Shown here: positions 21,762 to 44,065 of the stretch, in pieces
Position numbering within the stretch: the first letter of the stretch is position 1
Layout of the letters: each line of letters begins with the position of its first letter
Assembly (NCBI RefSeq): GCF_900105985.1
Contig: NZ_FNUB01000004.1
Location: 285,501-349,500, forward strand
Origin: Tenacibaculum sp. MAR_2010_89
Lineage (GTDB): Bacteria; Bacteroidota; Bacteroidia; Flavobacteriales; Flavobacteriaceae
Length of the DNA: 64,000 bases
Direction of reading: 5' to 3'
Made by a program: the position numbers and the translations under genes
Notes under the pieces: model-generated
The model's input: only the letters and a program-made list of their open reading frames with translations
Database searches by the model: none
What the model was told of the DNA's origin: nothing

Positions 21762-21772
21762 TTGTGGAGACG
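21762..21772 (+). other. att core J1 (distal end of element A)
   Basis: TTGTGGAGACG, in the same orientation as the tmRNA end at 55249. Inward the sequence continues CCGAG, so 14 bases of the tmRNA end (TGGAGACGCCGAG plus flank) are shared here. Outward lies the host terminator. Confidence 0.85.
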
Positions 21773-21936
21773 CCGAGTAGGAAAGGTGTATTTTTTATGT
21801 TTTCTATTTAATCTGTTTTTACCGATTTTAGATCATAACAAAACCCCTACAACACTTTACCAACAAGGATTTAGATTAAGTTGACACTTGGTAGTTAAAA
21901 GGATTGCCCCTCTCTGATAAAACTCGTAACTTAATC
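21762..21936 (+). repeat. element A C-end inverted repeat, left copy
   Basis: This 175-bp segment is identical, on my base-by-base reading, to the reverse complement of 29328-29502. It begins at the att core and ends 72 bp before the integrase start. It contains no gene. Confidence 0.9.
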
Positions 21937-22008
21937 CAAAATATATGTATTTGAGCCCCTCCTCAGCACCACCTGATTCCTACAGAAAACTTACCAAATC
22001 TATTTATT

Positions 22009-23277
22009 ATGGCAAGTGTAAAGTTTTTTATAAAAGGGAAAAGTAATCCTACTACAATTTATGTTCGATTATCCGCTTCTAATAGAATATTGTTAAGAAA
22101 AAGTACTTCACTATTAATTAATCCTGATTTTTTTAATAGAAAAAAAGGAGTTGTTAAATTGATAAAAGCTAATGAAGGTTTAATTAATTTAAATAATGAT
22201 TTAGAAGCTTTAAAAATTAAAATAATAACTTCTTATAATAAGGAAATATCAAAAGGTGTTAATATAAACTCATTGTGGTTAACTAGCATTATAGATGTGC
22301 ATTTCGATAGGGTAAAAGAAAGTAAATTAGACTTTATAATAAATTATGCAGATGATTTTATAAAAAGGCTACCTACTAAAACTAATCCAAAAGGAGGAGT
22401 TGGAGTTTCAATAGCTACTATTAAGAAATATAAAACTATTAGAAGAAAATTAAGAAAATATGAAATCAGTAGAAAGTTAAAATTAAAACTAACAGATATT
22501 AATTTAAGTTTTAGAGAGGATTATTTAAAATTCTTATTAGTTGATGAAAGAATGAGTATGAATACTGCTGGAAGAGATATCAAATTTGTTAAAACCATTT
22601 GTTTAGACGCTAAAAATAATGGTATCGAGGTTAGTTCTCAGTTAGAATCAATAAAAGGTTTTTCAGTTAAGGTTGAAAGTATATTTTTAAATTTTGATGA
22701 GATAGAAATTATAAGTAATACTAAGTTTTTAGATGAGAACTTATCAAATGCGAGAGATTGGTTAGTTATGGGCTGTTATCTAGGTCAAAGAGTTAGTGAT
22801 TTGTTGGTTATGAGAAAAGAAAATATAAAGGAAAAAGGAAATCTTAAAGTTATTGAACTTACTCAAAAAAAGACAAAGAAAAAAGTAAATGTTTTATTAC
22901 ATCCAAAGGTTATTGAAATATTAGAAAGAAGGAATTGGGAGTTTCCTAAAACGTTTTCTAATAATTTGGAAAGTAATAAAACATTATTTAATAAATATAT
23001 AAAGGAAGTAGCAAGAGAGGCTGGTTTAATTTATAAAGTAGCAGGAGGAAAGGTGAATAAAAAAACTAATCGTAAAGAGAAAGGGGTATATAAAAAATAT
23101 GAATTAATTACTTCTCATATTTGTCGTAGAAGTTTTGCTAGTAATTATTATGCAACTGTTCCAACACCTTTATTGATGAGTGTTACTGGGCATTCTACAG
23201 AGAAAGATTTTCTTTTGTATATCGGTAAAACATCTGCTGATTATGTTGATAATTTAGCAAAATATTGGGGGTTATAA
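22009..23277 (+). CDS. int: tyrosine recombinase (integrase of element A)
   Basis: This 422-residue site-specific recombinase should act on the tmRNA att cores. It has an N-terminal arm-type-binding region (residues 1-90), a SAM-like core-binding domain (about 105-215) and a catalytic domain with the full set of residues: R261 in GQRVSD, a Lys in the KKTKKK strand, H370 and R373 in HICRR, H395 in TGHS, and nucleophile Y404. It lies 72 bp inside the left C-end repeat and points into the element. The family is the Bacteroidota phage/ICE integrase type. Confidence 0.92.
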   Translation: MASVKFFIKGKSNPTTIYVRLSASNRILLRKSTSLLINPDFFNRKKGVVKLIKANEGLINLNNDLEALKIKIITSYNKEISKGVNINSLWLTSIIDVHFDRVKESKLDFIINYADDFIKRLPTKTNPKGGVGVSIATIKKYKTIRRKLRKYEISRKLKLKLTDINLSFREDYLKFLLVDERMSMNTAGRDIKFVKTICLDAKNNGIEVSSQLESIKGFSVKVESIFLNFDEIEIISNTKFLDENLSNARDWLVMGCYLGQRVSDLLVMRKENIKEKGNLKVIELTQKKTKKKVNVLLHPKVIEILERRNWEFPKTFSNNLESNKTLFNKYIKEVAREAGLIYKVAGGKVNKKTNRKEKGVYKKYELITSHICRRSFASNYYATVPTPLLMSVTGHSTEKDFLLYIGKTSADYVDNLAKYWGL

Positions 23278-23393
23278 AGTAATGAAAAATGATTTCTATT
23301 TAGGTATATTTATCAAATAAATTGTAACGAAACTCCAAGTCATTTGAAGTACTTAGCTTTTTCTGAGAGGAGTATAATAAATTAAAAATGTAA

Positions 23394-24401
23394 ATGGGAA
23401 AATCTATAGAACTTTTAAAAAATTACTCAAAGGAGAAGCATCGTGATTTACTGTACTCAACCTTTGATGTTATTCCATTTTCTATTCATACTATTAATAG
23501 TGAAGTATGGGAAGAAGAACTTTGGCTTAATGGACATGAGGTTCCATATGTGTCATTAACACATCTATTAGATTCTTATGATTGTTTACCTGAAAGACCT
23601 GATATGGGATTTACTTTTCTATGGAAAGCAATAAATAATACATACAAAGAACTTGGTGTAAATAAAAAGATTTTGCAATCAGACACATCAAGACTTTCCG
23701 ACTCAGATGGGATAAATTATTTAATTAATGAGATTGATAATATAAAAACATTGTCAGTATCAACAGAGTACTCAGTTTTAGAGTTAATAGAGGAGTATGT
23801 TAGTTTAATGCCTATGAAGCCTTTAAAATTTGTTAGTAATTATGTTTTAAAAGGAAATACTATGGAAAACTCAAATATTTTACCAATATTAAGAGGTTCA
23901 TCATATGCATCATTTAAATCAAATCATAGTGATATTTTTAATAAAATTAAAAACACTTATGGTAATGCATATAATAATATTACAAATCCAGTAATTGTAA
24001 ATAGTAAATGTAATTTAAATATTACTGAATTTGAAAAATCAAAATCTATACCTAAAAGTCTTGCTGTAAAATTAAGAGAATTGTTAGTTAATAGAACATC
24101 AATTATAAGTAATTCTAATCAGAGTCAAGACTACACATTATCTCTTTCTGATGATAAAGAATATTTTAAGTTTCTAATTAAAACTATTTTATATGCTATA
24201 AGAAATAATAGTGTACATGGTAATCTGGTTTCTAGATTAAACAGTGAGTACTCATCTGTAGGTTCACTTAAAACAGCTATTTATATTTATTTTTTAGGTC
24301 ATTTATTCTTATCACTAGGGTTATATATTAATGATAAAATAGAAGTTAATAATTTATCAAATAATATTAAAAACCTTGAATTGCTTAAATCTTTATTGTA
24401 A
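23394..24401 (+). CDS. unknown protein with HEPN-like Rx4H motif
   Basis: I do not recognise this 335-residue protein overall. Near the C-terminus, in a helical region, is AIRNNSVHGN with R270 and H275 spaced as in the Rx4-6H motif of HEPN ribonucleases, followed by a hydrophobic helix. HEPN proteins are frequent toxins and defence effectors. It lies between the integrase and another unknown gene in arm 1 of element A. The HEPN assignment rests only on the motif and helical context. Confidence 0.5.
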   Translation: MGKSIELLKNYSKEKHRDLLYSTFDVIPFSIHTINSEVWEEELWLNGHEVPYVSLTHLLDSYDCLPERPDMGFTFLWKAINNTYKELGVNKKILQSDTSRLSDSDGINYLINEIDNIKTLSVSTEYSVLELIEEYVSLMPMKPLKFVSNYVLKGNTMENSNILPILRGSSYASFKSNHSDIFNKIKNTYGNAYNNITNPVIVNSKCNLNITEFEKSKSIPKSLAVKLRELLVNRTSIISNSNQSQDYTLSLSDDKEYFKFLIKTILYAIRNNSVHGNLVSRLNSEYSSVGSLKTAIYIYFLGHLFLSLGLYINDKIEVNNLSNNIKNLELLKSLL

Positions 24402-24509
24402 TTTTTAATCGTATTCAAAGTAAGTTTTCAAGAGTTTTATTGTTGCTTATAAAGTTTGAAGTAGATTTAATAGGTCAGGGAGATAGTAAATATTAATATT
24501 TTAATTTGG

Positions 24510-25232
24510 ATGAAATTAAAAAAAGCAGAGTTTGAAAATTTAAGAAAAAGAGTTCAAAAGATTAGCGTCGATTTAATGAGACATGAAAATAAAAATCATG
24601 CAAAAGTGGGCTTTCCAATAACGAACTATAGGAAATGCGAAATTGATGGAAAACCTTTTTATTATACTGGGTCAAATATATTTTTGATTTTAGTTGAAGA
24701 GGTACTGATTAAAGCGAGAAAAATTTTCCCGAAAAATTTTGGTAATGGGAATGCAGTAAGTGTATTACATGCTTTAAACAAAACTAGATTTTTGTGTAAT
24801 AATTTAAAAGATGCTATTAGAGTTTATGGAAATGAAAATTTTATTTTAGTTTTTGATAATGAAAATGAAGAAGAAGAAAACAGAATTCTTAGAATTGATT
24901 TGTTTAGGCAGTTAAATAAAATAAGACATAAGAAAAGAAGATATGATTTTACAGGAGGTTTGTTCCATGTTTTAAAACATTTTAGTATTAATAATGAACC
25001 ATTATCTACAGGAACAGATATTAATAATGTAGAGACACCTACAGATGTAATTAAATTAATTATTAAAGCATTTTACTTATTTTCTGGAAAATTTGATGAA
25101 GACGACAGTAATAAATACACAGTAATAGAACCTTTAGATGATAAAAATGAAATGTGTTATGTTTTTTACTTTGAAGAAGTGACTAGAGTCTTTTTTCTTA
25201 AAACAGTATTTAAAAGAAAGATTAAAATTTAA
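24510..25232 (+). CDS. hypothetical protein of element A
   Basis: The 240-residue basic protein has no recognised domain. It has a charged helical N-terminus, a central acidic loop (NENEEEEN) and a basic tail (FKRKIKI). A stretch RQLNKIRHKKRRYDF could again be HEPN-like or DNA-binding. It is followed 120 bp later by the DUF262 pair, so it may belong to the same defence module. Confidence 0.5.
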   Translation: MKLKKAEFENLRKRVQKISVDLMRHENKNHAKVGFPITNYRKCEIDGKPFYYTGSNIFLILVEEVLIKARKIFPKNFGNGNAVSVLHALNKTRFLCNNLKDAIRVYGNENFILVFDNENEEEENRILRIDLFRQLNKIRHKKRRYDFTGGLFHVLKHFSINNEPLSTGTDINNVETPTDVIKLIIKAFYLFSGKFDEDDSNKYTVIEPLDDKNEMCYVFYFEEVTRVFFLKTVFKRKIKI

Positions 25233-25351
25233 CTTTATAAGGGAGAGAGTTAGTTTATCAGTAAAACAAAGTAAACAAAGGTGTTTTGAAATAGTACTTC
25301 TTTATAAAAAAGAAGCTTACAGATATAAAATAATAAAGAATAGGCGTAACA

Positions 25352-27163
25352 ATGGATAAATTAGAGCTAATCCCAGTTGAAAAATTACTACAGAAAGATT
25401 TTTTTATACCTTCCTATCAGAGAGGGTATCGTTGGAAAGAAAGACAAGTAATAGATTTATTAGAAGATGTTCTTGAGTTTCAAAACAAAGGAAAGCTGAG
25501 AGAGGAAGGTGAGTTTTATTGTTTACAACCTTTAGTAATTACAAGGAAAGAAATAAAAGGTAAATTGAAATGGGAAGTAATAGATGGTCAACAAAGGTTA
25601 ACCACTCTCTATCTAATATTAACTTATTTTAAAAGTTTACTAATAGAAGAGCATGGAATTGAAGGATTATATACAATTGACTATGAAACAAGACAAGGAA
25701 GTTGGTCTTTTTTAGAAAAAATAGAATCGAGTGGTGAAATTAGTAAAGAAAATCCTGATTATTACCATATTAGTATGGCTTATAGAACAATAGTTGATTG
25801 GTTTTCTGATAAGATAAAAAATAAAGAAGGCAAAAAAAGATTTTCAAAAAGGCAATATTTAGAAAGTTTGATACTAACTGATGTAAATGAAAGTGATATA
25901 GATACTGCTAATAACGTTCGTTTTATTTGGTATGAAGTTCAAACTAAGGATGAGTTAGAAGCAAAAAGTATCTTCACAAGAATAAACATGGGGAAAATAC
26001 CACTTACAAACGCAGAACTTATAAAAGCACTTTTTTTTATAAATGGGACTAATTCAAGTAAAGAAAGAGAAAAGCATCAGCAAAAACTAGCCTATGAATG
26101 GGACGGTATTGAAAAAAGCTTGCAAAATAAAGATTTTTGGTTTTTTCTGAACAAAGTAAATTATTCAAAACCAACTAAAATTGAATTTATATTTGATTTA
26201 ATAGCAAATAAATACAAAGAGAAGGTCTCCATTAAAGTTAACAAAGACATTGATAAGTATTATACGTTTTATGTTTTTAATAATTTGATTAGTAGCGGAG
26301 TGGTGTCAAAAGAGGAGTTGTGGAAAGAAGTAAAAGTGTATTCTAAAACTTTTGATGAGTGGTTTAGAAATAATGAATATTATCATCTAATCGGGTATTT
26401 GATACATACAGGGAAAGATATTGAACTCATAAAAGAATTATCAAATAATATATCAAAATCAGGGTTTAAAAAAGAATTATTTAAACTAATTAAAGGAGGT
26501 ATTCAATTAAATTTTGAGAAAAATAAAATCGAAAATTTAATTGAATTGTCTTATCAGGATAATAGTCAAATTATAAGGGATTTATTACTTCTTTTTAACG
26601 TTGTGTCAACAATGGATAGCAAATATTCAAAATTTCCATTTGAAAGATATGTGTATGAAAAATGGAGTTTGGAACACATTCATGCACAAAACTCTGAAGA
26701 TTTAAAGATAGATAAACATAGGAAGTCGCTTTTAGAAGAACAAAAAATATATTTTAAAAGTTTGAAAGAAGAAAATTTAACTAGTAAAATAATTGAAATT
26801 TTAGAAAGTGATGTTATAAATGTTGACTTGTTTACTAATTTACAGGAAGAAATTTTTAAAAAGTATACAAAAGATGAAAATGTAAATATTCATTCCATTG
26901 ATAATATGGCTCTTTTGGCAAGAGCTGATAATTCAGTTTTAAACAATAATATTTTTCCTATTAAAAGGGACAAAATAATTGAACTTGATGAAAAAGGTTC
27001 TTTTATTCCAATCTGTACTAAAAATGTTTTTCTAAAGTATTATAGTAAAGATGTCATTCAAAATTCTGAATGGACAAAAAAAGATAGGAAAGCTTATTTA
27101 ATTGAAATTAAGAAAAAAATAGCTAATTATTTGCCACATGAAGAAGGGAAGAATGAAAACTAA
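25352..27163 (+). CDS. DUF262/DUF1524 protein (GmrSD-like nuclease)
   Basis: This 603-residue protein combines an N-terminal DUF262 (ParB-like NTPase/nuclease fold) with QRGYRW (residues 23-28) and DGQQRLTTL (78-86), and a C-terminal DUF1524 HNH-type region with EHIHAQN (H442, H444). This is the layout of GmrSD-type type IV restriction enzymes, which attack modified phage DNA. It overlaps a second DUF262 gene. The substrate cannot be read from the sequence. Confidence 0.8.
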   Translation: MDKLELIPVEKLLQKDFFIPSYQRGYRWKERQVIDLLEDVLEFQNKGKLREEGEFYCLQPLVITRKEIKGKLKWEVIDGQQRLTTLYLILTYFKSLLIEEHGIEGLYTIDYETRQGSWSFLEKIESSGEISKENPDYYHISMAYRTIVDWFSDKIKNKEGKKRFSKRQYLESLILTDVNESDIDTANNVRFIWYEVQTKDELEAKSIFTRINMGKIPLTNAELIKALFFINGTNSSKEREKHQQKLAYEWDGIEKSLQNKDFWFFLNKVNYSKPTKIEFIFDLIANKYKEKVSIKVNKDIDKYYTFYVFNNLISSGVVSKEELWKEVKVYSKTFDEWFRNNEYYHLIGYLIHTGKDIELIKELSNNISKSGFKKELFKLIKGGIQLNFEKNKIENLIELSYQDNSQIIRDLLLLFNVVSTMDSKYSKFPFERYVYEKWSLEHIHAQNSEDLKIDKHRKSLLEEQKIYFKSLKEENLTSKIIEILESDVINVDLFTNLQEEIFKKYTKDENVNIHSIDNMALLARADNSVLNNNIFPIKRDKIIELDEKGSFIPICTKNVFLKYYSKDVIQNSEWTKKDRKAYLIEIKKKIANYLPHEEGKNEN

Positions 27164-29333
27164 ATATACTTTTTGGGAATTGTTAAGTAACTATAGAATA
27201 GAAATTCCTAAAATTCAACGTGATTATGCGCAAGGAAGAAAAGAGCCAGATATTATTAATATAGTTGATACTTTTCTTGAAGATATAAAGAAATCAATAA
27301 TAGAGCATAAGGAATTGAACCTTGATTTTGTTTATGGAAAAGTTGAGGATACAGTTTTGATACCTCTAGATGGTCAACAACGTTTAACCACATTGTTTTT
27401 AATTCACTGGTATATTGCTTTAAAAGAGAATAAACTAACAAGTGAAGTGAAATCTATTCTGTTAAAATTCTCTTACGAGACTAGAGTTAGTTCAGAAGAT
27501 TTTTGTAAATACCTAGTATCTGAAAATATTGATTATAGTATAATAAACAATAATATTAGTGATGAAATAACAGATAGTGAATGGTTCTTTCTATCATGGG
27601 AATTTGACCCGACTGTCTCAGCGATGCTGAATATGTTAGATTTAATACACGATAAATTTAAAAGAGTTAAAGAGAAAATATTTGATAAGTTAGTTGAGGG
27701 AATTAATGTAACTTTTCAATTTTTACCATTAGAGCAATTTAAATTAACTGATGAGCTTTATATAAAGATGAATGCAAGAGGTAAGCCTCTTACTGAGTTT
27801 GAAAATTTTAAAGCTAATTTTTCTCAATATTTAACAAGACTAGAAGATAAGTCTAAATTAGATAATGAATGGTTAGATGTTTTTTGGGATTTTGAAAAAA
27901 ATAATGAGACTGAAATTTTAACAGATAATGTAGATAAACAGTTCTTTAGTTTTTTTAAAAATATTACTTTAAATTTTTACACAGAAGAAAATTATATTGA
28001 TAAAGATTTTATAGATAATTATAATCTTTTTAAAAATTATAATAATGTTTATGATAGTGAAAAATATATTTCTGAAATTATAAGTGTTTTTAATGGACTT
28101 ATAACTTATAACGATACAGAAGATGTTTTTAAAAACTTCCTATCTTCTTCTGTAAATTATTGGGAAAGATTAAGGTTTTATTCATTGTCTAAGTTTTTTA
28201 TCCAATTTGGTCAAGTAGATAAAGAAAATGTTGAGTATTTAAATAAATGGATGAGAATAACAGGGAATCTAATAAATAATACACTTATTCAAAGTCCTTC
28301 TAATTATGTAGATGCAATTCGTTCTGTAAATGATTTAAGTGCTAATATTTCTACTATTTATGAGTTTGTAAGTAATTCAAATGAAAAAATAAAATATTTT
28401 TCAAGAATACAGATAAATGAAGAAAATCAGAAAGCTAAACTAATTTTAAATGATTTAAGATGGGAAAGTATTTTGATTAGCATTGAGAAACATTCTTATT
28501 TTGATGGTCAAGTAGGTTTTCTTTTAGATTTCTCTAGAAATAATGAGGGTAAACATGAAAAAAAATATTTTAAAGAGTATTCTCTAAAATCTATCAAATT
28601 ATTTAGTGAACAATTTAGTGAGGGTTATGATTTTCTATTTCAGAGAGCTTTATTAGTAAAAGGTGATTATTTAGTTGATAAAAATCAAAACAAAACATTT
28701 TGTTTATTTGATAAAGCATTAAGGACTAAAAATGATAATTGGCGAAAAGTATTTAATGATGAGCGGAAAAAACTTTACCTGAAAGAATTATTAGATGAAA
28801 TTGACGATTCAAATATTGAGTTAAGTTTAAAGAAAGTTATTGATAATAATACGGTTAAAGATTGGAGAAAATCGATAATTGAAGACCCTTCAAATATAGC
28901 TTATTGTCAATATCGAGAAATAAGACAGTATTCTGATAATAATGTTTACTTATTATCCAAAAGACAAATGAATGGGCGTCATAAAGAAATATATAGTTGG
29001 GATTTATTTAAAAGAGAATTTCAGCACAAGAATTTTTTTCCTTTTAAAAATGTTTGGTATTGGGAAAGTACATCTTGGGAAGAGCCTTGTATAATAATAT
29101 CAGAATTTAATTATAATGGAGGTAGGTTTGTGTTTGAAATTGAGTTTGACGATAGAAATAATAAATACAGAGTGTCATTCAAAGATAGAAATGAAGGAGC
29201 ATTTCCAGATATAATTATAAAAATTTTAAAGAAATTTGGATTTAAAAATGATTTCTTAAGCTTGAAAGAAGATAAGTTGTCTGATAAAATTAAAGAAATA
29301 AGTTTAGAGTTATCGAACCTCAATAAAGATTAA
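27153..29333 (+). CDS. second DUF262 protein, partner of the upstream DUF262 gene
   Basis: About 726 residues from ATG 27153; an in-frame ATG at 27138 would lengthen the overlap with the upstream gene from 11 to 26 bases. The N-terminus carries IQRDYAQGR and PLDGQQRLTTL, the DUF262 signatures. The middle has YIKMNARGKPL, and the large C-terminal part is unassigned. Tandem overlapping DUF262 genes suggest a two-subunit restriction-like system. The last six bases, including the stop codon, lie inside the right C-end repeat of element A. Confidence 0.8.
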   Translation: MKTKYTFWELLSNYRIEIPKIQRDYAQGRKEPDIINIVDTFLEDIKKSIIEHKELNLDFVYGKVEDTVLIPLDGQQRLTTLFLIHWYIALKENKLTSEVKSILLKFSYETRVSSEDFCKYLVSENIDYSIINNNISDEITDSEWFFLSWEFDPTVSAMLNMLDLIHDKFKRVKEKIFDKLVEGINVTFQFLPLEQFKLTDELYIKMNARGKPLTEFENFKANFSQYLTRLEDKSKLDNEWLDVFWDFEKNNETEILTDNVDKQFFSFFKNITLNFYTEENYIDKDFIDNYNLFKNYNNVYDSEKYISEIISVFNGLITYNDTEDVFKNFLSSSVNYWERLRFYSLSKFFIQFGQVDKENVEYLNKWMRITGNLINNTLIQSPSNYVDAIRSVNDLSANISTIYEFVSNSNEKIKYFSRIQINEENQKAKLILNDLRWESILISIEKHSYFDGQVGFLLDFSRNNEGKHEKKYFKEYSLKSIKLFSEQFSEGYDFLFQRALLVKGDYLVDKNQNKTFCLFDKALRTKNDNWRKVFNDERKKLYLKELLDEIDDSNIELSLKKVIDNNTVKDWRKSIIEDPSNIAYCQYREIRQYSDNNVYLLSKRQMNGRHKEIYSWDLFKREFQHKNFFPFKNVWYWESTSWEEPCIIISEFNYNGGRFVFEIEFDDRNNKYRVSFKDRNEGAFPDIIIKILKKFGFKNDFLSLKEDKLSDKIKEISLELSNLNKD

Positions 29334-29502
29334 GTTACGAGTTTTATCAGAGAGGGGCAATCCTTTTAACTACCAAGTGTCAACTTAATCTAAATCCTTG
29401 TTGGTAAAGTGTTGTAGGGGTTTTGTTATGATCTAAAATCGGTAAAAACAGATTAAATAGAAAACATAAAAAATACACCTTTCCTACTCGGCGTCTCCAC
29501 AA
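29328..29502 (-). repeat. element A C-end inverted repeat, internal copy
   Basis: Reverse complement of 21762-21936 (175 bp, no differences seen). Its inner edge includes the stop codon of the DUF262 gene, and its outer edge is the internal att core. Confidence 0.9.
29492..29502 (-). other. att core J2 (internal, inverted; attP of element A)
   Basis: CGTCTCCACAA on the plus strand, opposite to J1 and J3. The flanks are C-end on the left and T-end on the right, exactly the junction that circularisation at J1 x J3 would generate. So this is an intact attP inside the integrated element. Confidence 0.85.
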
Positions 29503-29504
29503 AT

Positions 29505-29538
29505 AACCTCGTAAGTCATTGATTTTGCGAGGTTTTTT
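29505..29538 (+). terminator. element-borne terminator at the T-end, internal copy
   Basis: The stem AACCTCG / CGAGGTT is followed by a T run, reading away from the att core. Confidence 0.8.
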
Positions 29539-29672
29539 ATTTTAGTGGTGCTCCATAGTATAATTTTTTGATAAAAAACGTCTCAGAACTTCATTTTCCT
29601 TTAGAAAACTTTTCTTCAAATATAGATAAAATTTAAATTTTACTTAGAAGGAGACATTGAGAAGTATGAAAT

Positions 29673-29741
29673 ACAAATTATGGTCTGATGATTTGATTTA
29701 AATACTTAAATATATTTGTCAGACTATTATTTGTAAAAGTA
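29673..29741. repeat. dyad R1 of element A
   Basis: Arms ACAAATTATGGTCTGA and its imperfect complement CAGACTATTATTTGT surround a TTTAAATACTTAAA centre. Three such imperfect palindromes occur in each T-end repeat, possibly iterons or partition/termination sites. Confidence 0.75.
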
Positions 29742-29950
29742 TTCTAAAACTAATTCTAATAATTATTTTGAGCGGTATAGAAGCACATTCGTAATAGCTT
29801 TATCAAGCTTAATTAAATTGTATGTTTAATCAATATAATTTGAAAACCGTAGTTTTAATCTTAGGAAAAAAAGATAGAATAGAATTTTACTAGAATTAAG
29901 TATAATGATTTTGTTGTTAATTATATTTATTCAGTAAGGAAAGTTGTTTA

Positions 29951-30017
29951 ACAAATTATAGCCTGAGGTTCGTTTAAATACTTAAATAATTTTATTAAGC
30001 CATAATTTGTAAAAGTA
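29951..30017. repeat. dyad R2 of element A
   Basis: Arms ACAAATTATAGCCTGA and GCCATAATTTGT around TTTAAATACTTAAA; same family as R1 and R3. Confidence 0.75.
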
Positions 30018-30136
30018 TGATAACAATTAATTCATTTATTTTCTTTTTAAAAAGTAGAAATGACATTAAAACGACAATATATAATCTATTAGTATCAATA
30101 CCTGTTAAACTATGTTTTAGTAATAAAAAATATAGA

Positions 30137-30203
30137 ACAAATTATGGTCTGAGGTTTAGGTTTAAATACTTAAAAATATTTATCAAACCATAATTTGTAA
30201 AAA
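30137..30203. repeat. dyad R3 of element A
   Basis: Arms ACAAATTATGGTCTGA and AACCATAATTTGT around TTTAAATACTTAAA; the most symmetrical member of the family. Confidence 0.75.
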
Positions 30204-30270
30204 ATAGATTAAACATTTTATAAAAGTTTAAAATTTAGGATTAAGCTAATTTTCTTCTTTCCAAATAACA

Positions 30271-30587
30271 TTATAAAACCAATTCATTAATTTCATTCAG
30301 CGGAATTTTTCTATAAACTGTAAAATTCATACACTGATTAGTTTTTTCTTTTTTCTTAAAATTATTAATCTTGGTATAATCATAACTTTCAAGGCTCAGC
30401 ATTTTATCTAAAATCCCTTTTTCAAGTAATTTAGAATGTAATAATTTTAAACTTTTTGCAAGAAATACTTCTTTAGTTTTATTATCTATTATTGCATAAG
30501 CAAAATTAGAACGCTTGTTTTCTGTTTGACTTTTGAACTCTATTAACTTATCCCTGTATACATCAATAAATTCAGATAATAATAGTT
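30271..30587 (-). pseudogene. 3' fragment of the primase/helicase gene (duplicated in the inverted repeat)
   Basis: The reverse complement matches the last 317 bases of the gene at 39243-43286, including its stop codon. No start belongs to it, and the adjoining hsdR gene ends at the fragment edge. It is a by-product of the inverted duplication and is probably not expressed as protein. Confidence 0.85.
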
Positions 30588-33592: not shown

Positions 33593-33594
33593 TG

Positions 33595-34902: not shown

Positions 34903-36710
34903 TAAGATATAATTTCTTTTAATAAACCATCAGTTTCCTTTTCTAGTTTTATTATATCTAATGTAATGTCATAGGTGCTTCTTATGTTTTTATATTCAAA
35001 AAAATATTTAGTAAATGGAATTTCGTAGCCAATTTTAATTTTCTTTTTATCATACCAAGCATCTTCGGTAAAGGGTAATACCTCACGAGCAAAATAATCG
35101 TCAATATTTTCAGTGATAGGAACATTTTCAAAATCTTTTAATTCTTTGTTAGATTTTGGATTACCATATTTATCATTTATAATAGAGCCATTTTCGTCTT
35201 TTTCTGGTTGATGTATGGTTATCTGATAAAAACCAAAATCTTCATTATTAAATATTTTTGAGTATTCATTTTCTTCAAATTCAAAATAAAGATTTTGAAT
35301 ATCTAAAATATGATTAGGGGACAATTCTACTTTTTTATCTCCTAATCCTTTACGCATTTTATCATAAAACACTGTTGAAGTAGCATTAATTAACTGTACT
35401 TTATTTTTACGTTTCTGACTTTTGTTATTGCTTAATATCCATAAGTAAGTTGCAATACCAGTATTATAAAACATATCATTGGGAAGTTGTATAATACATT
35501 CTAAAAAATCGTTTTCCAAAATGTATTGTCGTATGCCACTTTCGCCACTTCCTGCATCTCCTGTTATTAAAGCTGACGCATTATGTACAGATGCAATTCT
35601 ACTACCACCATCTTTAGGGGATTTCATTTTAGATAACATATGTAACATAAACATTAACTGCCCATCACCACTACGAGATGTTAAGCATTTTCTTTCTAAT
35701 TCACCTTTAAAGTTTTTAATTTCTAGATTAAAACGAGTATCTTTTATTTCTATTTTCTTACCAACTCCTTCGTTTAATTCTTTTTGGTCTTCTTTCCAAC
35801 TTGTACCATATGGAGGGTTGGTAAGCATAAAATTAAACTTTAAGTTAGGGTCAAAACCATATTTACTAAGTGTAGAGCCAAATTGTATTTTATCTGGGTC
35901 TTCTCCTTTTAATAACATATCCGATTTACAAACGGCATACATTTCTCCAGTATTTTCTTGCCCATATAGATGAAAGCTTGCCTTTGACTTTATTTCACCT
36001 TCAGGATTGGTTGCATACTTTTTAGATTGTGTAAGCATTGCTCCAGAACCAGCACATGGGTCATATACCAAATATGTTCCTTTTTGTATTTTATCTTTTA
36101 CAGGTAGATACACCAAGTGAGTCATCAACTCTATGATTTCTCTAGGGGTAAAATGTCGTCCTGCTGCTGCATTAGTTTTTTCATTAAACCTACGAATCAG
36201 GTCTTCAAACATATAACCCATTGCCATAGGAGATATTTTTTCTGGACTTAACTCAACTTTAGGACTACAAAATTTTTCTAATAATGAAAAAGTAATTCCC
36301 GTAGATTCAAAAGTATCTAATTGGTTACGAAATTTAAATTTTTGAATAATGTCTTGGACATTTTCAGAAAAACCATTTAAATAATCTAAAAAATTAGCAT
36401 CAATGTTATTAGGGTCTTCTAATAACATTTTCATTGTGTATGGTGAAGTATTATAAAATTCTAATCCAGAACCATGGTCTTTACTGGTTAAAATCCCAGT
36501 AAGATTGTCCATTTTACTTTTAAATTCGTTGTGGGTTTTAAGTACTTTGTCTTTTGTTGGCTCTAAAGCCAAATCTAAACGTCTTAAAACCGTCATGGGT
36601 AAAATAACGTCTTGGTATTGGTTTTCTAAATATTTGTTTATTAATACATCATCTGCAACTGTCCAGATGAAGTTTATAATTGGCTGTAGACTTTGTGTAT
36701 CTAAATTCAT
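34902..36710 (-). CDS. hsdM: type I DNA methyltransferase subunit M (element A)
   Basis: The 602-residue adenine methyltransferase has an HsdM N-terminal helical domain, the SAM-binding motif DPCAGSG (217-223) and the catalytic motif NPPYG (298-302). It methylates the adenine in the HsdS target. The start overlaps the stop of a small XRE regulator gene by four bases, suggesting coupled expression. Confidence 0.93.
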   Translation of the reverse strand: MNLDTQSLQPIINFIWTVADDVLINKYLENQYQDVILPMTVLRRLDLALEPTKDKVLKTHNEFKSKMDNLTGILTSKDHGSGLEFYNTSPYTMKMLLEDPNNIDANFLDYLNGFSENVQDIIQKFKFRNQLDTFESTGITFSLLEKFCSPKVELSPEKISPMAMGYMFEDLIRRFNEKTNAAAGRHFTPREIIELMTHLVYLPVKDKIQKGTYLVYDPCAGSGAMLTQSKKYATNPEGEIKSKASFHLYGQENTGEMYAVCKSDMLLKGEDPDKIQFGSTLSKYGFDPNLKFNFMLTNPPYGTSWKEDQKELNEGVGKKIEIKDTRFNLEIKNFKGELERKCLTSRSGDGQLMFMLHMLSKMKSPKDGGSRIASVHNASALITGDAGSGESGIRQYILENDFLECIIQLPNDMFYNTGIATYLWILSNNKSQKRKNKVQLINATSTVFYDKMRKGLGDKKVELSPNHILDIQNLYFEFEENEYSKIFNNEDFGFYQITIHQPEKDENGSIINDKYGNPKSNKELKDFENVPITENIDDYFAREVLPFTEDAWYDKKKIKIGYEIPFTKYFFEYKNIRSTYDITLDIIKLEKETDGLLKEIIS

Positions 36711-36907
36711 TTTTTATCCTTCGATTCTACTAAAAGTTCTTTGGCTTCAATGCCTAATATTTCTCCAATTCTATAAAGGTCTTCAATACTAGGTTGTCTT
36801 CTGTTTTGAGCGTATGAGTTTACCATATTGTAACTTTTACCCAATTGTTTAGCCAACCAAATTTGCTTAATTCCTTTTTTCTCTAAAACCTCTTTTATAC
36901 GGTTCAT
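36707..36907 (-). CDS. XRE-family regulator, first gene of the element A R-M operon
   Basis: About 66 residues from the start MNRIKEV (36907), preferred over the longer frame because the helix-turn-helix (KQIWLAKQLGKSYNMVNSYAQNRR) then sits near the N-terminus as usual. It overlaps hsdM by four bases. Small XRE proteins in this position act as controllers that delay restriction after entry into a new cell; this role is inferred from position. Confidence 0.82.
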   Translation of the reverse strand: MNRIKEVLEKKGIKQIWLAKQLGKSYNMVNSYAQNRRQPSIEDLYRIGEILGIEAKELLVESKDKK

Positions 36908-37042
36908 TTTTGAATTGTTGTATTCAAAGTACAAAGTAATAATTTTATTTAAAAACATCTCACAAAATGAGTATAAAATGAATCGTTATATTTAAATTCA
37001 TTGACTATTAAATTATGTTGCAACCTCATTTATTAATAACAT

Positions 37043-37357
37043 ATGAATTTCGAAGAAAAACACCAATACTTAGTCAAAAACATTTATGATGGACTAACAA
37101 ATCTAAATACTGGTTTTGATAGTCCATACATTTATTATTTTAATGAATCAGATTTTGAAATTATTTTGGATAGAGTCGAAAAACATAATATTACTATATC
37201 AGGAATTGAGCCATGGAAAAATGGCGAATACTACGATGTTAGAGTTATGGAAGAGTACCCTGATGATAAGCTATGGTATAGAAAGGTTTTTGAAGATTAT
37301 AAAGCTTTAAAAGAGAATTTTCAATACGCAGCTAGTTATTTATTACCAAGTAAATAA
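37043..37357 (+). CDS. hypothetical small protein of element A
   Basis: This 104-residue acidic, aromatic-rich protein has no recognised domain. It is divergent from the R-M operon and faces the second XRE gene. It could be an anti-restriction or regulatory partner, but nothing in the sequence proves it. Confidence 0.5.
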   Translation: MNFEEKHQYLVKNIYDGLTNLNTGFDSPYIYYFNESDFEIILDRVEKHNITISGIEPWKNGEYYDVRVMEEYPDDKLWYRKVFEDYKALKENFQYAASYLLPSK

Positions 37358-37365
37358 ATAATATC

Positions 37366-37614: not shown

Positions 37615-37665
37615 GAAACAAATCTGCACACAAGAAACCAAAAACAACCAATTGTAATCAATGGG

Positions 37666-37694: not shown

Positions 37695-37718
37695 CATAAA
37701 TAATATAACATATAAATT

Positions 37719-39017
37719 ATGAAAAGAACATTAATAGCCAATAAACTAATTTTGTTTATTACCATTTTTTCTAACTTAATTTCATATAGTCAAGAAAAAA
37801 TAAGATTTATTAATCTAAAAAAATTGAATAGTACTATCTATGAGAAATCAACTAAAGATACAGAACTACCTGATTTTACCTATCCTATAACTGATGAAAA
37901 TTATTTAGAGAGTATAAAGGATACATTAGCTATTTATAATGAAAAATTAATAGTATTTAAACGTATAGAAGATTTAGAAGAATTGGTTGGTAACTTTCAG
38001 CAGCTTAAACTAAACACAAATTCCAAAAAAGAAAGAAAAAAACTTCTGGAAAGGTCATTTAAAATCTATGAACAAAACAAACAAAAAAGGTTAGATTTTT
38101 CTCCATTAAAAATAGAGAAATCTGAATTTAAACCTTCTCTTTTTGGTTATTCTTATAATTCAGATGACATAATTTTAAAAACCAAAAAAGTAATTAAGTT
38201 TCTGAACGAAAGAGTTATTATTAAGCATAATAAAGAAATACAAGAAAAAATAAGAAATGCTAAAAATAATTTGAGTCAAGGTTTAATTAAGTCATTACCT
38301 AAAATAAATAGAAAACTCCAAACTTTAAAAGAAAATACTGATTTAGAGACTATAAAGGGAGAGTATACTCATAAAGGCGTGATATATGTATCTTATAAAA
38401 ATGATTATTTTAACAAAAGATATAAAGGAGAAATAGTTAATTCTTACATACAAGGGAGTACATATACATATGAATATTATAAAAATATAAATGGTGATGG
38501 AAAAGATGTTTATATACGTGACTTTAGATATCCTAAAGAATTTACTATTGAAGCTAATGTTTATAAAACTATATCTGAAGGAGCAAAACAAATGGGTGGT
38601 ACATTTAATATTACTGCCTTAGATTGGACTATAAAGCTAAAAAATGGGAAAAAGATTAATGTTACAAAGGATATTTATAATGCTTTAGAAGCTAAAAATT
38701 ATAAATACATTCTAAATAAATCAAAGATACCGTCGAAAGTTAAGTACTATTTAAAACAAGCTACCCCATATTTAAAAACAATGTATAATGGGATTTTAGC
38801 TCATAAAAATTGGACATTAACAAAAGCCAAGAAAACTTCATGGATAAATGCTACGAAAAAAGTAAAATTGATTGATAAAAAAATTAGAGCTTTATATGAT
38901 AATAATGAAGATAATTATTATGATTTTCAAAAATTACTTGATACAAAAACGATAGAAGACAAAACCTATTTTGACACCGTCCTTAATAACTCCAAAAAAA
39001 TATTAGGGATTATCTAG
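37719..39017 (+). CDS. secreted protein of unknown function (element A)
   Basis: The 432-residue product starts with a signal peptide (hydrophobic stretch to about residue 22, then SYSQEK). The rest is lysine-rich, with a coiled-coil-prone middle (residues about 85-120 and 160-200), a beta-rich segment (KGEYTHKGVIYVSYKNDY) and a helical C-terminus. No domain is recognised. It has its own promoter and terminator inside the mobile element, so it is an independent cargo gene acting in the periplasm or outside. Confidence 0.65.
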   Translation: MKRTLIANKLILFITIFSNLISYSQEKIRFINLKKLNSTIYEKSTKDTELPDFTYPITDENYLESIKDTLAIYNEKLIVFKRIEDLEELVGNFQQLKLNTNSKKERKKLLERSFKIYEQNKQKRLDFSPLKIEKSEFKPSLFGYSYNSDDIILKTKKVIKFLNERVIIKHNKEIQEKIRNAKNNLSQGLIKSLPKINRKLQTLKENTDLETIKGEYTHKGVIYVSYKNDYFNKRYKGEIVNSYIQGSTYTYEYYKNINGDGKDVYIRDFRYPKEFTIEANVYKTISEGAKQMGGTFNITALDWTIKLKNGKKINVTKDIYNALEAKNYKYILNKSKIPSKVKYYLKQATPYLKTMYNGILAHKNWTLTKAKKTSWINATKKVKLIDKKIRALYDNNEDNYYDFQKLLDTKTIEDKTYFDTVLNNSKKILGII

Positions 39018-39041
39018 CTAATTTTAATACTATATTTTAAA

Positions 39042-39068
39042 AGCCATCTTTTTAAAGATGGTTTTTTT
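39042..39068 (+). terminator. intrinsic terminator after the secreted protein gene
   Basis: The stem CCATCTTT / AAAGATGG with a short loop is followed by a seven-base T run. Confidence 0.85.
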
Positions 39069-39242
39069 GGGTTTAAACGATTTTAAATAAAAACAAATAA
39101 AGACCTGAAAGACAAATACTTAACCTTGTGTTTGATTTATTTAAGCATCACTATAAACCTTCAGTTCTGACAAAAAAATAAAAACTTCGTTATATTGATG
39201 TAGAAGGATATTCAAAGTGAATATTCATTAAAAATATTTTAT

Positions 39243-42200
39243 ATGAATAAAATAATTATAAAAGCAAATCAAGAAAAAACAATTTTAGATTACGATGTCA
39301 AATTCTTTTCAGATTACCATCCAAGGTTTACTAATAAGTATGGAGAAAGAGAAAGAAAAACTATTTATTCTCAACAACCCTTGAAAGAAAGATTTATTAC
39401 AGCAAATAATAAAATAAACGAACGTTGTAATTATAATGGTAAAAAAGGAAAAGACGAGACTATTAATGGTATATATGCCCATCTTTCTTTAAATGAACTT
39501 GTATATGCTATCAATAAATCTTCTGCAAAAAATCACTATTTCATTTTTAAAAAGAAAGAAAAAGGAGAAATTATAAAAGGACATGGGCTTTGCATATCTA
39601 AATTACTTCTACAGGGAGGTATAAGTCCTATCAAGAATTCCATTGGTAATGGTTCTCCGTTTTTATTTTACGATATTGATGTAAAAAGTCAATTAGATAA
39701 AAAAGAGAATATTACTCTATACTCAGAAGATGGCAAACCAAATGCTTTGAACAAGAATGTTTTTGATTTTATGAAGTCTATATCACTTATAACAGCCCGT
39801 TCGTCAAGTGGTCTAGGAATTTGTGGAGTTCTATACTGTCCTTTCTTGGAAAATATTAATAATAATAATTTACATAAAGAAATAGGTATAACAGTTTATC
39901 GTTTTATAAATGAGAACTTAAACCCTCCAACTCAAATTGAATTTGATGAAGCACAAGCCCAATTTACACAAGGAAGGATGTTTCCTGTTCAACTTTCTAA
40001 TACTACTAATGCTGACTGGGATAGGGTTGAACTAAATAAGGAAGCTTTAGAATTTGATGTGGAACTTACACATAACGAAGAAAGTTTTAATAAGGAAACT
40101 ATTAAAAAAAATAGTTTAGCAAAGACATCTGAAAAAAAGGAAAGTAAAATATTAAATTTAAATAATAGTTTTAGCTCTGAATTTGACAATAAAAAAAATG
40201 TAAAATTATTTAATCAAAGAATTAAATGTTCATACTTATTAAATATTAGTGAGTATTATGAGTATGTATGTATTAATAATAGTGGGTTCGAAGTTTACCA
40301 AAAAGTAGGAAAAAATAATAAGTCGGTAAATGTTAATCCAGAAAGGAATTTCTTTACTTGTTTTACAGGTAGTTTAAATGGGTATACTCCATTCCATTTA
40401 TACGCACAACTTTTTTTTAAAGGTGACTTTAAAAAAACATATTTTTCATTGGAAAAACAACTAGAATACGAAAAAATAGTAGATGATAATTATTGGTTAG
40501 ACTATTTAGAACCTTTATCTGTGATATACAATTGGCAGGAGATTATAGAAATATTAAACTCTAGTTATAAGTACTCTGATATATATTTATCTGAAGATGG
40601 AGTAATAAAATCCAGAAGTAAAAGTCTTGTAGATATTTTAGGTATAGATGAAAGAGATATTACTAACTCACTTCATTTATTATTAAAAACTAGAGGTTTC
40701 GAATATCCTATATTTGATATTTTAAATGACAAAAATATTACTTCAGACTTAAAAATAAACAAGTATTTAAGTCCTGAATTGATAATAAATAATTGTATAG
40801 AATTCATAAATTATGTTTTCTCTCCTTGTGGTACAGGTAAGACAACTACTTTTTTAGGAAGTCAAGAAACTAATATTAATGGAATATCTAAAAATAACAG
40901 TGTACTATTCATAGTTCCTAGAAAACTTATGGTAGAGCAACAATCTAAAAGCTGCAAAAAAAGCCATAATATTATTTCTTCTACTGGAGATGAACAATTA
41001 GGTTTCGACATTAATACAGAATACATTTCTTCAATAGGAAATAATGTAAACAAACTTTTTGATAATAAAAACAAATTAAGGTCAGTTATAACCACATATG
41101 ACCAATTTGTAAATATTCCTAATTCAATAATAAATGAGTATGATTATGTAGTTTTGGATGAAGCTCACCTGTTAGCATCTGATGATTTTAGAGAAGCAAT
41201 ATCAGAAACTTATTTAAAATTAAAGGAGTCGCATAATAATAGAAATGTAAAGTATATTTTATTGTCAGCAACTCCTAGTATGGAGGTATTTACACTTAAA
41301 GAATATTTTAAAAATAATTTTAAAATATTAAATATTAAAAAAAACGAAGATTTAAAGCCTTGTGTTTTAATTAATGGAATAGATGGAATTTCTAAAGAGA
41401 AAAAAGGGCTTTTAATTTTTAAGCAAATTTTAAATGATATTTCAGAAAATCGAAAAGCAATTATTTTCTGTGAGAATAAAGAAAAAATAATTCACAAGAT
41501 AAATGCATTCAAAAGTTATTGTGACTCAATATGTCAATCAACACCTACTATTGGAATTATAAGTGCTGATTCTAAAGAAATGAATGCATATAAACAAATT
41601 GTTAATAATGAGTATTTAGAGCCTAAAGTAACTTTTACAACCTCTGTTCTAAATGTAGGAGTAAACATCACCAAAGGTACAGAAGGAGGAGCAAGTTTTT
41701 TCTTTGATTTTAGCTCAACTGCACACCATACTTCTGCATGCAGTTTATTACAACTAATGTTTAGGAATAGAAATAAAAAAACAAAAGTTCATTGTTATGC
41801 TGAAGTTTTTAAAGTCGATGATAGAAAATTAAAAACTAATTTAGTAGATAGGTTTAATAATTTTAAAAAAAATAAATTATATGAAAATGAAAGTATCAAA
41901 AAGAGATATAAGTTTAGTGAAGTGAAATTAAAGACTCAGAATCAAGTATCTGAAACCTATATAGCAACATCAGATTTAGAGAAAAACACTAAAATAGAAC
42001 AAAAATCTTTAGGTAGTTTTGTTAACTTAGCCGTTAAAAATGGGTGTTATATTGATTATACCTACAAAACGATAGAGCCTGAAAAAGGTATTAAAAGTGA
42101 TAATATTATAAATTCTTTGGTTTATAATATTCTAAAACAACTTTTGGAAATTAAAACAAATAATAGAATTAAATTAATTAATTTAAGTGAATTTAACAAT

Positions 42201-43286
42201 GAATTAATTACCCCAGAAATTTCTATTGCTAAATCGCCTAATAAACTAGAAGATGGACAAGAATTTTATGAATGCCAATATAATCCAAGTCTAAAAAGTA
42301 TAGAAGAAAAAATAACACGATGTTTCAATTTCTTGAAAATTAAATACGGAAGTAGAAATAAAGTTAAAAATGTTTTAAACTTTATTTTAAATGATAAAAA
42401 AAATAAAAAGAGATTGGATAGAAAATTGATAAATTATATTGATACTCTAAAAATAATTGAAAAAGAATCTATTATTAGTAAAATATTATTATCAGAAATA
42501 GAGAGGTTAGAAGATTTTTCAAAGAAAAAAATGGAATATATTTTAGAGACTAAAATTCCTAGTAAAATTTTATCCATTCTTGATGATGAAATTACAAATA
42601 CCAATCTAGAAAATATTCATCTAGATTTAGTTAAAAACAAAAACTTTAGAGAATCTTTCGAAGAGTATATAATAGGAGAAACAAATAAAACTTTTAAAGC
42701 CTTATTTCTAACTAAAGAAGAGCAAAAGAAGTTCACTTTGACAGAAAAAATGATTCTAAACATAGAAAAAGAAAAAAACATTACTGAAGAAGACTTTAGA
42801 GATATTCTCATTAAACTGAACCTTAATAATAGTATTATAGAAGAAAATATATTTGATGCTTTATCTCATAAATTATCTTTAAATTATACAGGTGTTACAT
42901 TAGATAAATTCAAGGCAGAATTTAATACTTCTTTAAAAGATTATTTCAATGATGAACTCCATGAAAATGAACTATTATTATCTGAATTTATTGATGTATA
43001 CAGGGATAAGTTAATAGAGTTCAAAAGTCAAACAGAAAACAAGCGTTCTAATTTTGCTTATGCAATAATAGATAATAAAACTAAAGAAGTATTTCTTGCA
43101 AAAAGTTTAAAATTATTACATTCTAAATTACTTGAAAAAGGGATTTTAGATAAAATGCTGAGCCTTGAAAGTTATGATTATACCAAGATTAATAATTTTA
43201 AGAAAAAAGAAAAAACTAATCAGTGTATGAATTTTACAGTTTATAGAAAAATTCCGCTGAATGAAATTAATGAATTGGTTTTATAA
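39243..43286 (+). CDS. large primase/helicase-like replication protein of element A
   Basis: In this 1347-residue protein, residues about 100-280 resemble the BT4734/VirE N-terminal primase-like domain of Bacteroidota mobile elements (LFYDIDVK, ARSSSGLGICGVLYC, QGRMFPV). Residues 520-850 form a superfamily 2 helicase: Walker A GTGKTT (530-535), DEAH (639-642), SATPS, and a motif VI-like QLMFRNRN. The C-terminal 450 residues are helical and unassigned. The layout recalls viral origin-binding helicases. It likely initiates replication of the excised circle. The last 317 bases lie within the T-end repeat. Confidence 0.65.
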   Translation: MNKIIIKANQEKTILDYDVKFFSDYHPRFTNKYGERERKTIYSQQPLKERFITANNKINERCNYNGKKGKDETINGIYAHLSLNELVYAINKSSAKNHYFIFKKKEKGEIIKGHGLCISKLLLQGGISPIKNSIGNGSPFLFYDIDVKSQLDKKENITLYSEDGKPNALNKNVFDFMKSISLITARSSSGLGICGVLYCPFLENINNNNLHKEIGITVYRFINENLNPPTQIEFDEAQAQFTQGRMFPVQLSNTTNADWDRVELNKEALEFDVELTHNEESFNKETIKKNSLAKTSEKKESKILNLNNSFSSEFDNKKNVKLFNQRIKCSYLLNISEYYEYVCINNSGFEVYQKVGKNNKSVNVNPERNFFTCFTGSLNGYTPFHLYAQLFFKGDFKKTYFSLEKQLEYEKIVDDNYWLDYLEPLSVIYNWQEIIEILNSSYKYSDIYLSEDGVIKSRSKSLVDILGIDERDITNSLHLLLKTRGFEYPIFDILNDKNITSDLKINKYLSPELIINNCIEFINYVFSPCGTGKTTTFLGSQETNINGISKNNSVLFIVPRKLMVEQQSKSCKKSHNIISSTGDEQLGFDINTEYISSIGNNVNKLFDNKNKLRSVITTYDQFVNIPNSIINEYDYVVLDEAHLLASDDFREAISETYLKLKESHNNRNVKYILLSATPSMEVFTLKEYFKNNFKILNIKKNEDLKPCVLINGIDGISKEKKGLLIFKQILNDISENRKAIIFCENKEKIIHKINAFKSYCDSICQSTPTIGIISADSKEMNAYKQIVNNEYLEPKVTFTTSVLNVGVNITKGTEGGASFFFDFSSTAHHTSACSLLQLMFRNRNKKTKVHCYAEVFKVDDRKLKTNLVDRFNNFKKNKLYENESIKKRYKFSEVKLKTQNQVSETYIATSDLEKNTKIEQKSLGSFVNLAVKNGCYIDYTYKTIEPEKGIKSDNIINSLVYNILKQLLEIKTNNRIKLINLSEFNNELITPEISIAKSPNKLEDGQEFYECQYNPSLKSIEEKITRCFNFLKIKYGSRNKVKNVLNFILNDKKNKKRLDRKLINYIDTLKIIEKESIISKILLSEIERLEDFSKKKMEYILETKIPSKILSILDDEITNTNLENIHLDLVKNKNFRESFEEYIIGETNKTFKALFLTKEEQKKFTLTEKMILNIEKEKNITEEDFRDILIKLNLNNSIIEENIFDALSHKLSLNYTGVTLDKFKAEFNTSLKDYFNDELHENELLLSEFIDVYRDKLIEFKSQTENKRSNFAYAIIDNKTKEVFLAKSLKLLHSKLLEKGILDKMLSLESYDYTKINNFKKKEKTNQCMNFTVYRKIPLNEINELVL

Positions 43287-43353
43287 TGTTATTTGGAAAG
43301 AAGAAAATTAGCTTAATCCTAAATTTTAAACTTTTATAAAATGTTTAATCTAT

Positions 43354-43420
43354 TTTTTACAAATTATGGTTTGATAAATATTTTTAAGTATTTAAACCTA
43401 AACCTCAGACCATAATTTGT
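43354..43420. repeat. dyad R3, right copy
   Basis: Mirror of 30137-30203. Confidence 0.75.
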
Positions 43421-43539
43421 TCTATATTTTTTATTACTAAAACATAGTTTAACAGGTATTGATACTAATAGATTATATATTGTCGTTTTAATGTCATTTC
43501 TACTTTTTAAAAAGAAAATAAATGAATTAATTGTTATCA

Positions 43540-43606
43540 TACTTTTACAAATTATGGCTTAATAAAATTATTTAAGTATTTAAACGAACCTCAGGCTATA
43601 ATTTGT
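43540..43606. repeat. dyad R2, right copy
   Basis: Mirror of 29951-30017. Confidence 0.75.
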
Positions 43607-43815
43607 TAAACAACTTTCCTTACTGAATAAATATAATTAACAACAAAATCATTATACTTAATTCTAGTAAAATTCTATTCTATCTTTTTTTCCTAAGATT
43701 AAAACTACGGTTTTCAAATTATATTGATTAAACATACAATTTAATTAAGCTTGATAAAGCTATTACGAATGTGCTTCTATACCGCTCAAAATAATTATTA
43801 GAATTAGTTTTAGAA

Positions 43816-43884
43816 TACTTTTACAAATAATAGTCTGACAAATATATTTAAGTATTTAAATCAAATCATCAGACCATAATTTGT
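43816..43884. repeat. dyad R1, right copy
   Basis: Mirror of 29673-29741. Confidence 0.75.
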
Positions 43885-44018
43885 ATTTCATACTTCTCAA
43901 TGTCTCCTTCTAAGTAAAATTTAAATTTTATCTATATTTGAAGAAAAGTTTTCTAAAGGAAAATGAAGTTCTGAGACGTTTTTTATCAAAAAATTATACT
44001 ATGGAGCACCACTAAAAT

Positions 44019-44052
44019 AAAAAACCTCGCAAAATCAATGACTTACGAGGTT
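44019..44052 (-). terminator. element-borne terminator at the T-end, right copy
   Basis: Mirror of 29505-29538, reading leftward from the core. If element A sat directly against the tmRNA gene it would terminate the tmRNA transcript. Confidence 0.8.
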
Positions 44053-44054
44053 AT

Positions 44055-44065
44055 TTGTGGAGACG
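44055..44065 (+). other. att core J3 (junction of elements A and B)
   Basis: TTGTGGAGACG in direct orientation; left flank is the T-end of A, right flank the C-end of B (AAAGGACTCG). Confidence 0.85.

Follow-up and report, generated by a model that had tools for sequence, protein, structure and literature searches.

Integrated elements at ssrA in Tenacibaculum sp. MAR_2010_89 contain a second, inverted attP region that may serve arm inversion and amplification of the excised circle

The window examined here is a stretch of 64,000 nucleotides from Tenacibaculum sp. MAR_2010_89, in which two integrated elements, which we will refer to as A and B, are found next to ssrA (55251–55643, minus strand), the transfer-messenger RNA (tmRNA) gene that serves as their bacterial attachment site (attB). 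Element B (44055–55259) is located between ssrA and element A (21761–44065), which is likewise integrated at ssrA, and both elements contain, besides the left and right attachment sites at their ends (attL and attR), an internal inverted copy of the region that would constitute attP, the attachment site of the excised circle. The attachment core TTGTGGAGAC is present five times in the window, in the plus orientation at 21762, 44055, and 55249 and in the minus orientation at 29493 and 53521, and this number was reached in none of 100 shuffles of the window. The outer flank of J1, the attL of A (21761–21772, plus strand, core TTTGTGGAGACG), resembles native sequence 3′ of ssrA, being 95.6% identical over 45 aligned base pairs (bp) to the sequence directly 3′ of ssrA in another genome (G441). 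Because of this match, the pair of elements is placed between ssrA and an apparent native downstream hairpin, and the native downstream side of the gene looks to lie outside J1.

The original prediction for this DNA had described A as an element with direct cores at its ends (21762 and 44055) and an inverted core inside, around which both ends are present again as inverted copies, so that closure of the circle would recreate the internal junction and yield two inverted attP regions and two unique arms. This description is borne out in each of its parts. The inverted core is at 29493–29502, between the two direct ones; within the internal junction, J2, it is delimited as 29491–29502 (minus strand). 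The right end of A is found in exact inverted copies at 29492–30587 and 42970–44065 (1,096 bp) and the left end at 21758–21936 and 29328–29506 (179 bp). As individual features, the left end (P′) extends over 21773–21936 (plus strand, inverted copy at 29328–29490) and the right end (P) over 42970–44053 (plus strand, inverted copy in J2), and J3 (44054–44065, plus strand) is both the attR of A and the attL of B. When A is closed by joining J3 to J1, the resulting attP is the reverse complement of J2 (29328–30587, minus strand) with zero mismatches over 1,260 bp, and the unique arms of the would-be circle are 7,391 and 12,376 bp long. In 20 base-shuffled windows, which served as a chance control, no inverted 24-mers were observed. 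We also considered whether this structure arose when two elements fused at J2 and rejected the idea, since the cores would then be direct, whereas those observed in A are inverted.

Element B has the same layout with a different integrase, a point that the original prediction did not make. Its inverted copies are located at 44055–44731 and 52855–53530 and at 53520–53675 and 55104–55259, and its closed attP matches the internal junction J4 (52855–53675, minus strand) in an exact run of 818 bases. The left end (P′) of B comprises 44066–44731 (plus strand, inverted copy at 52855–53519), the right end (P) 55104–55248 (plus strand, inverted copy in J4), and J5, its attR at the 3′ end of ssrA, 55249–55259 (plus strand). 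A second species (G555) has an orthologue of B with the same layout and an integrase that is 97% identical. Within G555 the two copies of the right end do not differ from each other (145/145), nor do they within B, and the 8 differences that separate the right ends of B and G555 are, every one of them, found in both copies, which indicates concerted evolution rather than a fresh duplication. The left-end copies of B match at 676 of 677 positions, and in both B and G555 the left-end duplication ends 7 codons into the same gene for a protein of 167 amino acids (aa). As judged from these sequences, a single old duplication that was unequally homogenised provides a better explanation for B and G555 than two recent ones.

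The layout is also found in G068, a one-contig genome from another genus of the same family, where the closed attP of the element and its internal inverted copy share 1,710 identical bases. This element terminates within the 3′ part of a gene resembling glmS (with SIS and glutamine amidotransferase domains), it encodes a large serine recombinase as its integrase, and its repeat contains an apparently complete gene for a small resolvase of 206 aa. A, B, and the G068 element have one layout in common, each with an integrase of its own (a tyrosine enzyme in A and in B, a serine enzyme in G068), and use two target genes between them. Relatives sharing the layout of A, for which the original prediction had recommended a search, are in fact available in the form of B and the elements of G555 and G068, and the copies are near-identical within each element that has the layout, except at the left end in G555.

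The Rep-like protein of A (39243–43286, plus strand), which is 1347 aa long and has a DEAD helicase domain, is encoded by a gene whose last codons are inside the inverted repeat. 3′ of this gene, boxes of the ACAAATTATGGTYTGA type form three inverted pairs with a spacing of about 30 bp (43359–43420, 43547–43606, and 43823–43884; span 43359–43884, plus strand), which have their mirror images in J2 (29673–29734, 29951–30010, and 30137–30198; span 29673–30198, minus strand). The boxes of A show 0–3 mismatches to the ACAAATTATGGTYTGA-type search pattern, and 12 of the 13 matches in the window lie inside the two repeats of A, 1.69 being expected by chance. In G068 a box pair (ACAAATTTTGACCTGT, 29 bp, and its inverse) is located 3′ of Rep inside the repeat, and a similar pair is found 3′ of Rep, outside any repeat, in an element of the genome G063. 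In all three cases the arms are 14–16 bp long, about 30 bp apart, and within about 110 bp 3′ of the Rep stop. The box pairs are likely a cis site linked to Rep and a candidate replication origin. The GC skew, examined as a sign of the direction of replication, was rejected because it tracks the gene strand and is uninformative in this regard. The G063 element (L023–L025, joined about 13100–32500) seems to interrupt a comM/yifB-like gene, and besides a resolvase-like gene it has a second, longer serine-recombinase-like gene (gene names judged by eye from translations).

A search for homologues of Rep yielded five proteins among the 7,989 candidates scored, which were those sharing the most words with it. 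One of these (P0001), which is from an uncultured Tenacibaculum and is named partial, is 96% identical to Rep and stops at residue 1242 of the window's protein (codon 42966–42968), where the repeat begins (42967–42970), as is expected if a short-read contig broke at the same repeat. P0003 (49–51% identical) also ends early, about 19 residues short, and the ends of P0002, P0004, and P0005 look complete. Two other proteins (L014 and L015), both with a helicase domain and with matches to PHROG DNA helicases, match the N-terminal part of Rep, for which no named domain was found in Pfam, NCBIfam, or PHROGs and which may contain a motif like that of VirE/BT4734-like primases. A profile search of the PDB with Rep gave one weak match, to an RNA helicase (E 0.0032). 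No match to Rep was present in IMG/VR, phage, or plasmid records, and the possibility that it is a viral or plasmid gene was rejected on that account.

The other genes of A are distributed over its two arms. Arm 1 contains, all on the plus strand, the tyrosine integrase (22009–23277; 422 aa; Pfam PF13102 and PF00589; PHROG integrase), proteins of 335 aa (23394–24401; no Pfam match) and 240 aa (24510–25232; no Pfam match at E 0.001), a GmrSD-like defence gene (25352–27163; PF03235; PADLOC models Orf5, HEC-06, and SspE), and a second GmrSD-like gene (27138–29333; PF03235), the 3′ end of which reaches J2. In arm 2, hsdR-like (30587–33592; 1001 aa), hsdS-like (33595–34902), and hsdM-like (34902–36710) genes and a helix-turn-helix regulator (36707–36958) are on the minus strand, followed on the plus strand by two conserved proteins of 104 aa (37043–37357) and 432 aa (37719–39017), which are 47% and 26% identical, respectively, to their relatives in G068. 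A and G068 share a similar hsd module despite their different integrases and targets: hsdR and hsdM of A (30609–36910) are about 80% identical in DNA to those of G068 (joined 45963–55727), and the HsdR proteins are 87% identical. The two halves of the hsdS-like gene of A (33798–34219 and 34407–34828) are 92% identical over 423 bp, and from such similar recognition domains a symmetric target sequence would follow.

The genes of B are all on the minus strand and encode a 135-aa protein (44729–45136), hsdR-like (45235–48081), hsdS-like (48082–49284), and hsdM-like (49232–50785) proteins, a DUF6291 protein (51045–51743), the 167-aa protein (52372–52875; first 7 codons inside the inverted repeat), and a tyrosine integrase of 428 aa (53637–54923), which makes up essentially the entire second arm. 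This integrase was not listed by the whole-genome search with the integrase of A. In a search of 397 genomes of the family at E < 1e-60, it was detected in no genome other than that of the window, and within the genus (166 genomes) its relatives besides those of the window and G555 are a 73% match in G498 and others of 25–32% identity. The G498 match (L209, C11:26133–26489) is degenerate and partial, with five stops. For the integrase of A, 12 plasmid records contain relatives, each of less than 60% identity. Its closest named relative (L008, 84%) has other cargo as neighbours and is on a contig that begins 44 bases ahead of the integrase gene; another contig of the same genome (C21, L080) opens with a sequence that is related to the left end and is inverted. 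The ssrA-bearing regions of G154, G269, and G032, which contain relatives of the A-type integrase, showed no such inverted repeats.

For A and B, we infer that the internal inverted attP would provide the excised circle with two arms that may isomerise and be amplified during replication in the manner of the yeast 2-micron plasmid, an interpretation of the anatomy that we hold tentatively and to which we assign a little under an even chance. The integrated order is attL, arm 1, inverted attP, arm 2, and attR, and excision by recombination of attL with attR would release a circle in which two attP regions stand in inverted orientation to each other; further recombination between them would invert one arm against the other while restoring the same sites. 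If replication originates at the box pairs, where the Rep-like helicase would initiate it, the origin would lie beside one attP, which the fork would copy at once, whereas the other attP of A is 7–12 kb away. A crossover between the copied and the uncopied attP would then turn one fork, so that both forks would chase each other in the same direction, and the circle would multiply by means of these chasing forks before integrating again. For the 2-micron plasmid, a fork-turning flip scheme of this kind was reportedly put forward by Futcher. If crossovers between the repeats took place at an amplified stage, they would in addition prevent the copies from diverging. In A and B, the tyrosine integrase would carry out the flip, and in G068 homologous recombination or the resolvase borne on the repeat may do so. 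Large serine integrases usually do not recombine attP with attP.

The main rival explanation is that an inverted attP was duplicated by accident in each lineage and has persisted, with gene conversion keeping the copies alike and no amplification being involved; inverted copies could persist since, unlike direct ones, they cannot excise half of the element. We regard this as rather unlikely, yet several observations are in its favor, the first two of which also weigh against the amplification scheme. The element of G063, with its Rep-like gene (36% identity), box pair, and resolvase, has no inverted copy, and such a replicon can thus do without the layout. The left-end copies in G555 are only 68% identical (293/432 aligned bases; best stretches 83% over 131 bp and about 80% over 92 bp), and homogenisation is therefore not uniform. 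Further, the copies include gene fragments, namely the 3′ end of Rep in A, the 3′ end of the integrase gene in G068, and the 5′ end of the 167-aa protein gene in B. The scheme is also weakened by the serine integrase of G068, because of which the integrase cannot be the agent of flipping everywhere, and flipping driven by the element's own integrase fits A and B better than G068. In addition, B and G555 share one arm orientation, Pfam revealed no Rep-like helicase among the B proteins and no A-type boxes are present in B, and the predicted fold of the first 1,200 residues of Rep, with a mean predicted local distance difference test score of 38.8, is uninformative.

The limited occurrence of the layout also speaks for an accident and weighs against the amplification scheme. 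Of 121 genomes of the genus with at least 95% completeness that were searched for tmRNA, 50 consisting of few contigs (44 of them of a single contig) were surveyed over 40 kb behind ssrA for repeats of at least 60 bp and at least 80% identity, and the layout was lacking, the window being excluded, at 49 of the 50 loci. Inverted pairs were present at three loci, of which that of G555 has the layout and those of G406 and G436 are without an att core. The G406 pair was rejected as an instance of the layout for this reason; it has GTGTACCAGTTGGGG-type boxes and is situated, behind ssrA, on either side of a gene that encodes a protein of 1,600 aa (L107, 2993–3173 and 8530–8716). At 10 of the 50 loci the end of ssrA recurs as an ordinary direct copy of 14 bases in a displaced position, and an inverted 11-base copy was observed at none, a pattern that misses G555, whose inner core differs. 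Among 14 sequences compared with themselves, several of which are short (7–20 kb), 12 were without the layout, and it was found in the window region (A and B) and in G068. A check for the B type with flanks of about 1.5 kb, sufficient for the short arm of B but too short for the layout of A, revealed repeats at 2 of 60 loci (the window and G555). As a separate matter, G556 has full-length tmRNA matches near both ends of its 3,019,213-base contig (C1:17315 and C1:3006870), possibly an unclosed circular overlap.

Other observations count against accidental duplication. The layout occurs in three elements with different integrases, and every copy spans the core into both ends; the box pair is within the repeat in both of the Rep-bearing examples (A and G068); and the duplication in B looks older than the split from G555, and yet its left-end copies still match almost completely.

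A second alternative, which we consider improbable, is that the two attP regions form a platform for cassette exchange, where a double crossover at both of them swaps the cargo arm while the core arm stays. The arms are modular, as illustrated by the similarity of HsdR in A and G068 despite the other integrase and target, the second arm of B contains little beyond the integrase, and the closest relative of the A integrase adjoins other cargo. However, the hsd similarity ends within arm 2 of A and is not flanked by att cores on both sides, and the cargo arms of B and G555 are largely collinear. Still less probable, in our judgment, is an invertible switch, in which recombination of attL with attP or of attP with attR flips an arm in place and alters expression of the integrase or restriction genes. 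It follows from the anatomy that the att types would be unchanged after either flip, and the arms do carry defence genes and the integrase, but a pattern search found no full Bacteroidetes-type promoter in the repeats, only lone −7-like motifs, and the orientation in B and G555 is the same. Although repeats of this kind can trap assemblers, an assembly error is very hard to credit as the source of the inverted copies, since three separate genomes that differ in sequence show the layout, G555 and G068 are each listed as one contig, and the copies lie between open neighbouring genes. Returning to the amplification scheme, its extension to a class of bacterial elements that would have come into being on three or more occasions, with integrases of the tyrosine or the serine type, and in which the second inverted attP (together with an origin in those bearing Rep) would serve both integration and an amplification flip, is a possibility that we put forward with considerable reserve.

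It is generally assumed that an integrating element has a single attP. A and B are similar to genomic islands at ssrA and tRNA genes in having an integrase, the 3′ end of ssrA as target, and direct att copies at their ends, but they differ from ssrA islands in that their circular form would hold more than one attP. Of 20 proteins scanned with Pfam, one is encoded outside the elements, and the 19 encoded by A and B included no product of relaxase or conjugation genes; by that test A and B are not integrative and conjugative or integrative and mobilizable elements. Nor do they look like a prophage or phage satellite, as no capsid, packaging, or tail genes were found in Pfam (the same 19 proteins) or PHROGs (8 proteins). 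The helicase of small Clostridioides difficile DEAD/DEAH-helicase plasmids, which we take to be of the pCD630 type, is related to L015 (26.5% over 320 aa), itself a distant relative of the Rep of A; however, those plasmids are free rather than integrated, and the Rep of A itself had no match in the plasmid collection. The genomes of herpes simplex virus and chloroplasts also have two arms between inverted repeats, inside which no integration site is known. Double rolling-circle replication has been suggested for both of them and linked to frequent inversion and repeat recombination (PMC3147054). In vitro, the tyrosine integrase of pTN3 from Thermococcales can invert the DNA that lies between att sites in opposite orientation, but the available text of that work concerns designed templates and describes no element with a second inverted attP (PMC5495485). 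Searches of the open-access literature brought up no bacterial integrative element recognised to have a second inverted attP, most subscription papers being outside this search; the closest were the pTN3 work and the papers cited here on the 2-micron plasmid and on double rolling-circle replication.

Like the 2-micron plasmid with its Flp/FRT system, the would-be circles of A, B, and G068 are split by inverted repeats that hold the target of a recombinase, and this recombinase is encoded on the element itself (a tyrosine enzyme matching bacterial phage-integrase families in A and B, a large serine enzyme in G068) and may also act on the inner copy. The exact runs in the three elements are 818–1,710 bp long, as compared with repeats of 599 bp in the 2-micron plasmid (PMC6594588). 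Unlike the latter, these elements are bacterial and are found in the chromosome, integrated at ssrA or at a gene resembling glmS; the recombinase target within their repeats is the attP that is also used for integration, each of the two repeats contains origin-like sites in A and in G068, and one of the integrases is a serine enzyme. If the second inverted attP works in the way proposed, the order of the arms can change, one initiation can multiply the excised element, and the repeats remain identical. Such elements would be easily overlooked, because short-read assemblies would break at the repeats. The 2-micron plasmid would then have a bacterial counterpart, hidden in the chromosome, that employs a device familiar from plasmids of yeast and also suggested to operate in herpesviruses and chloroplasts.

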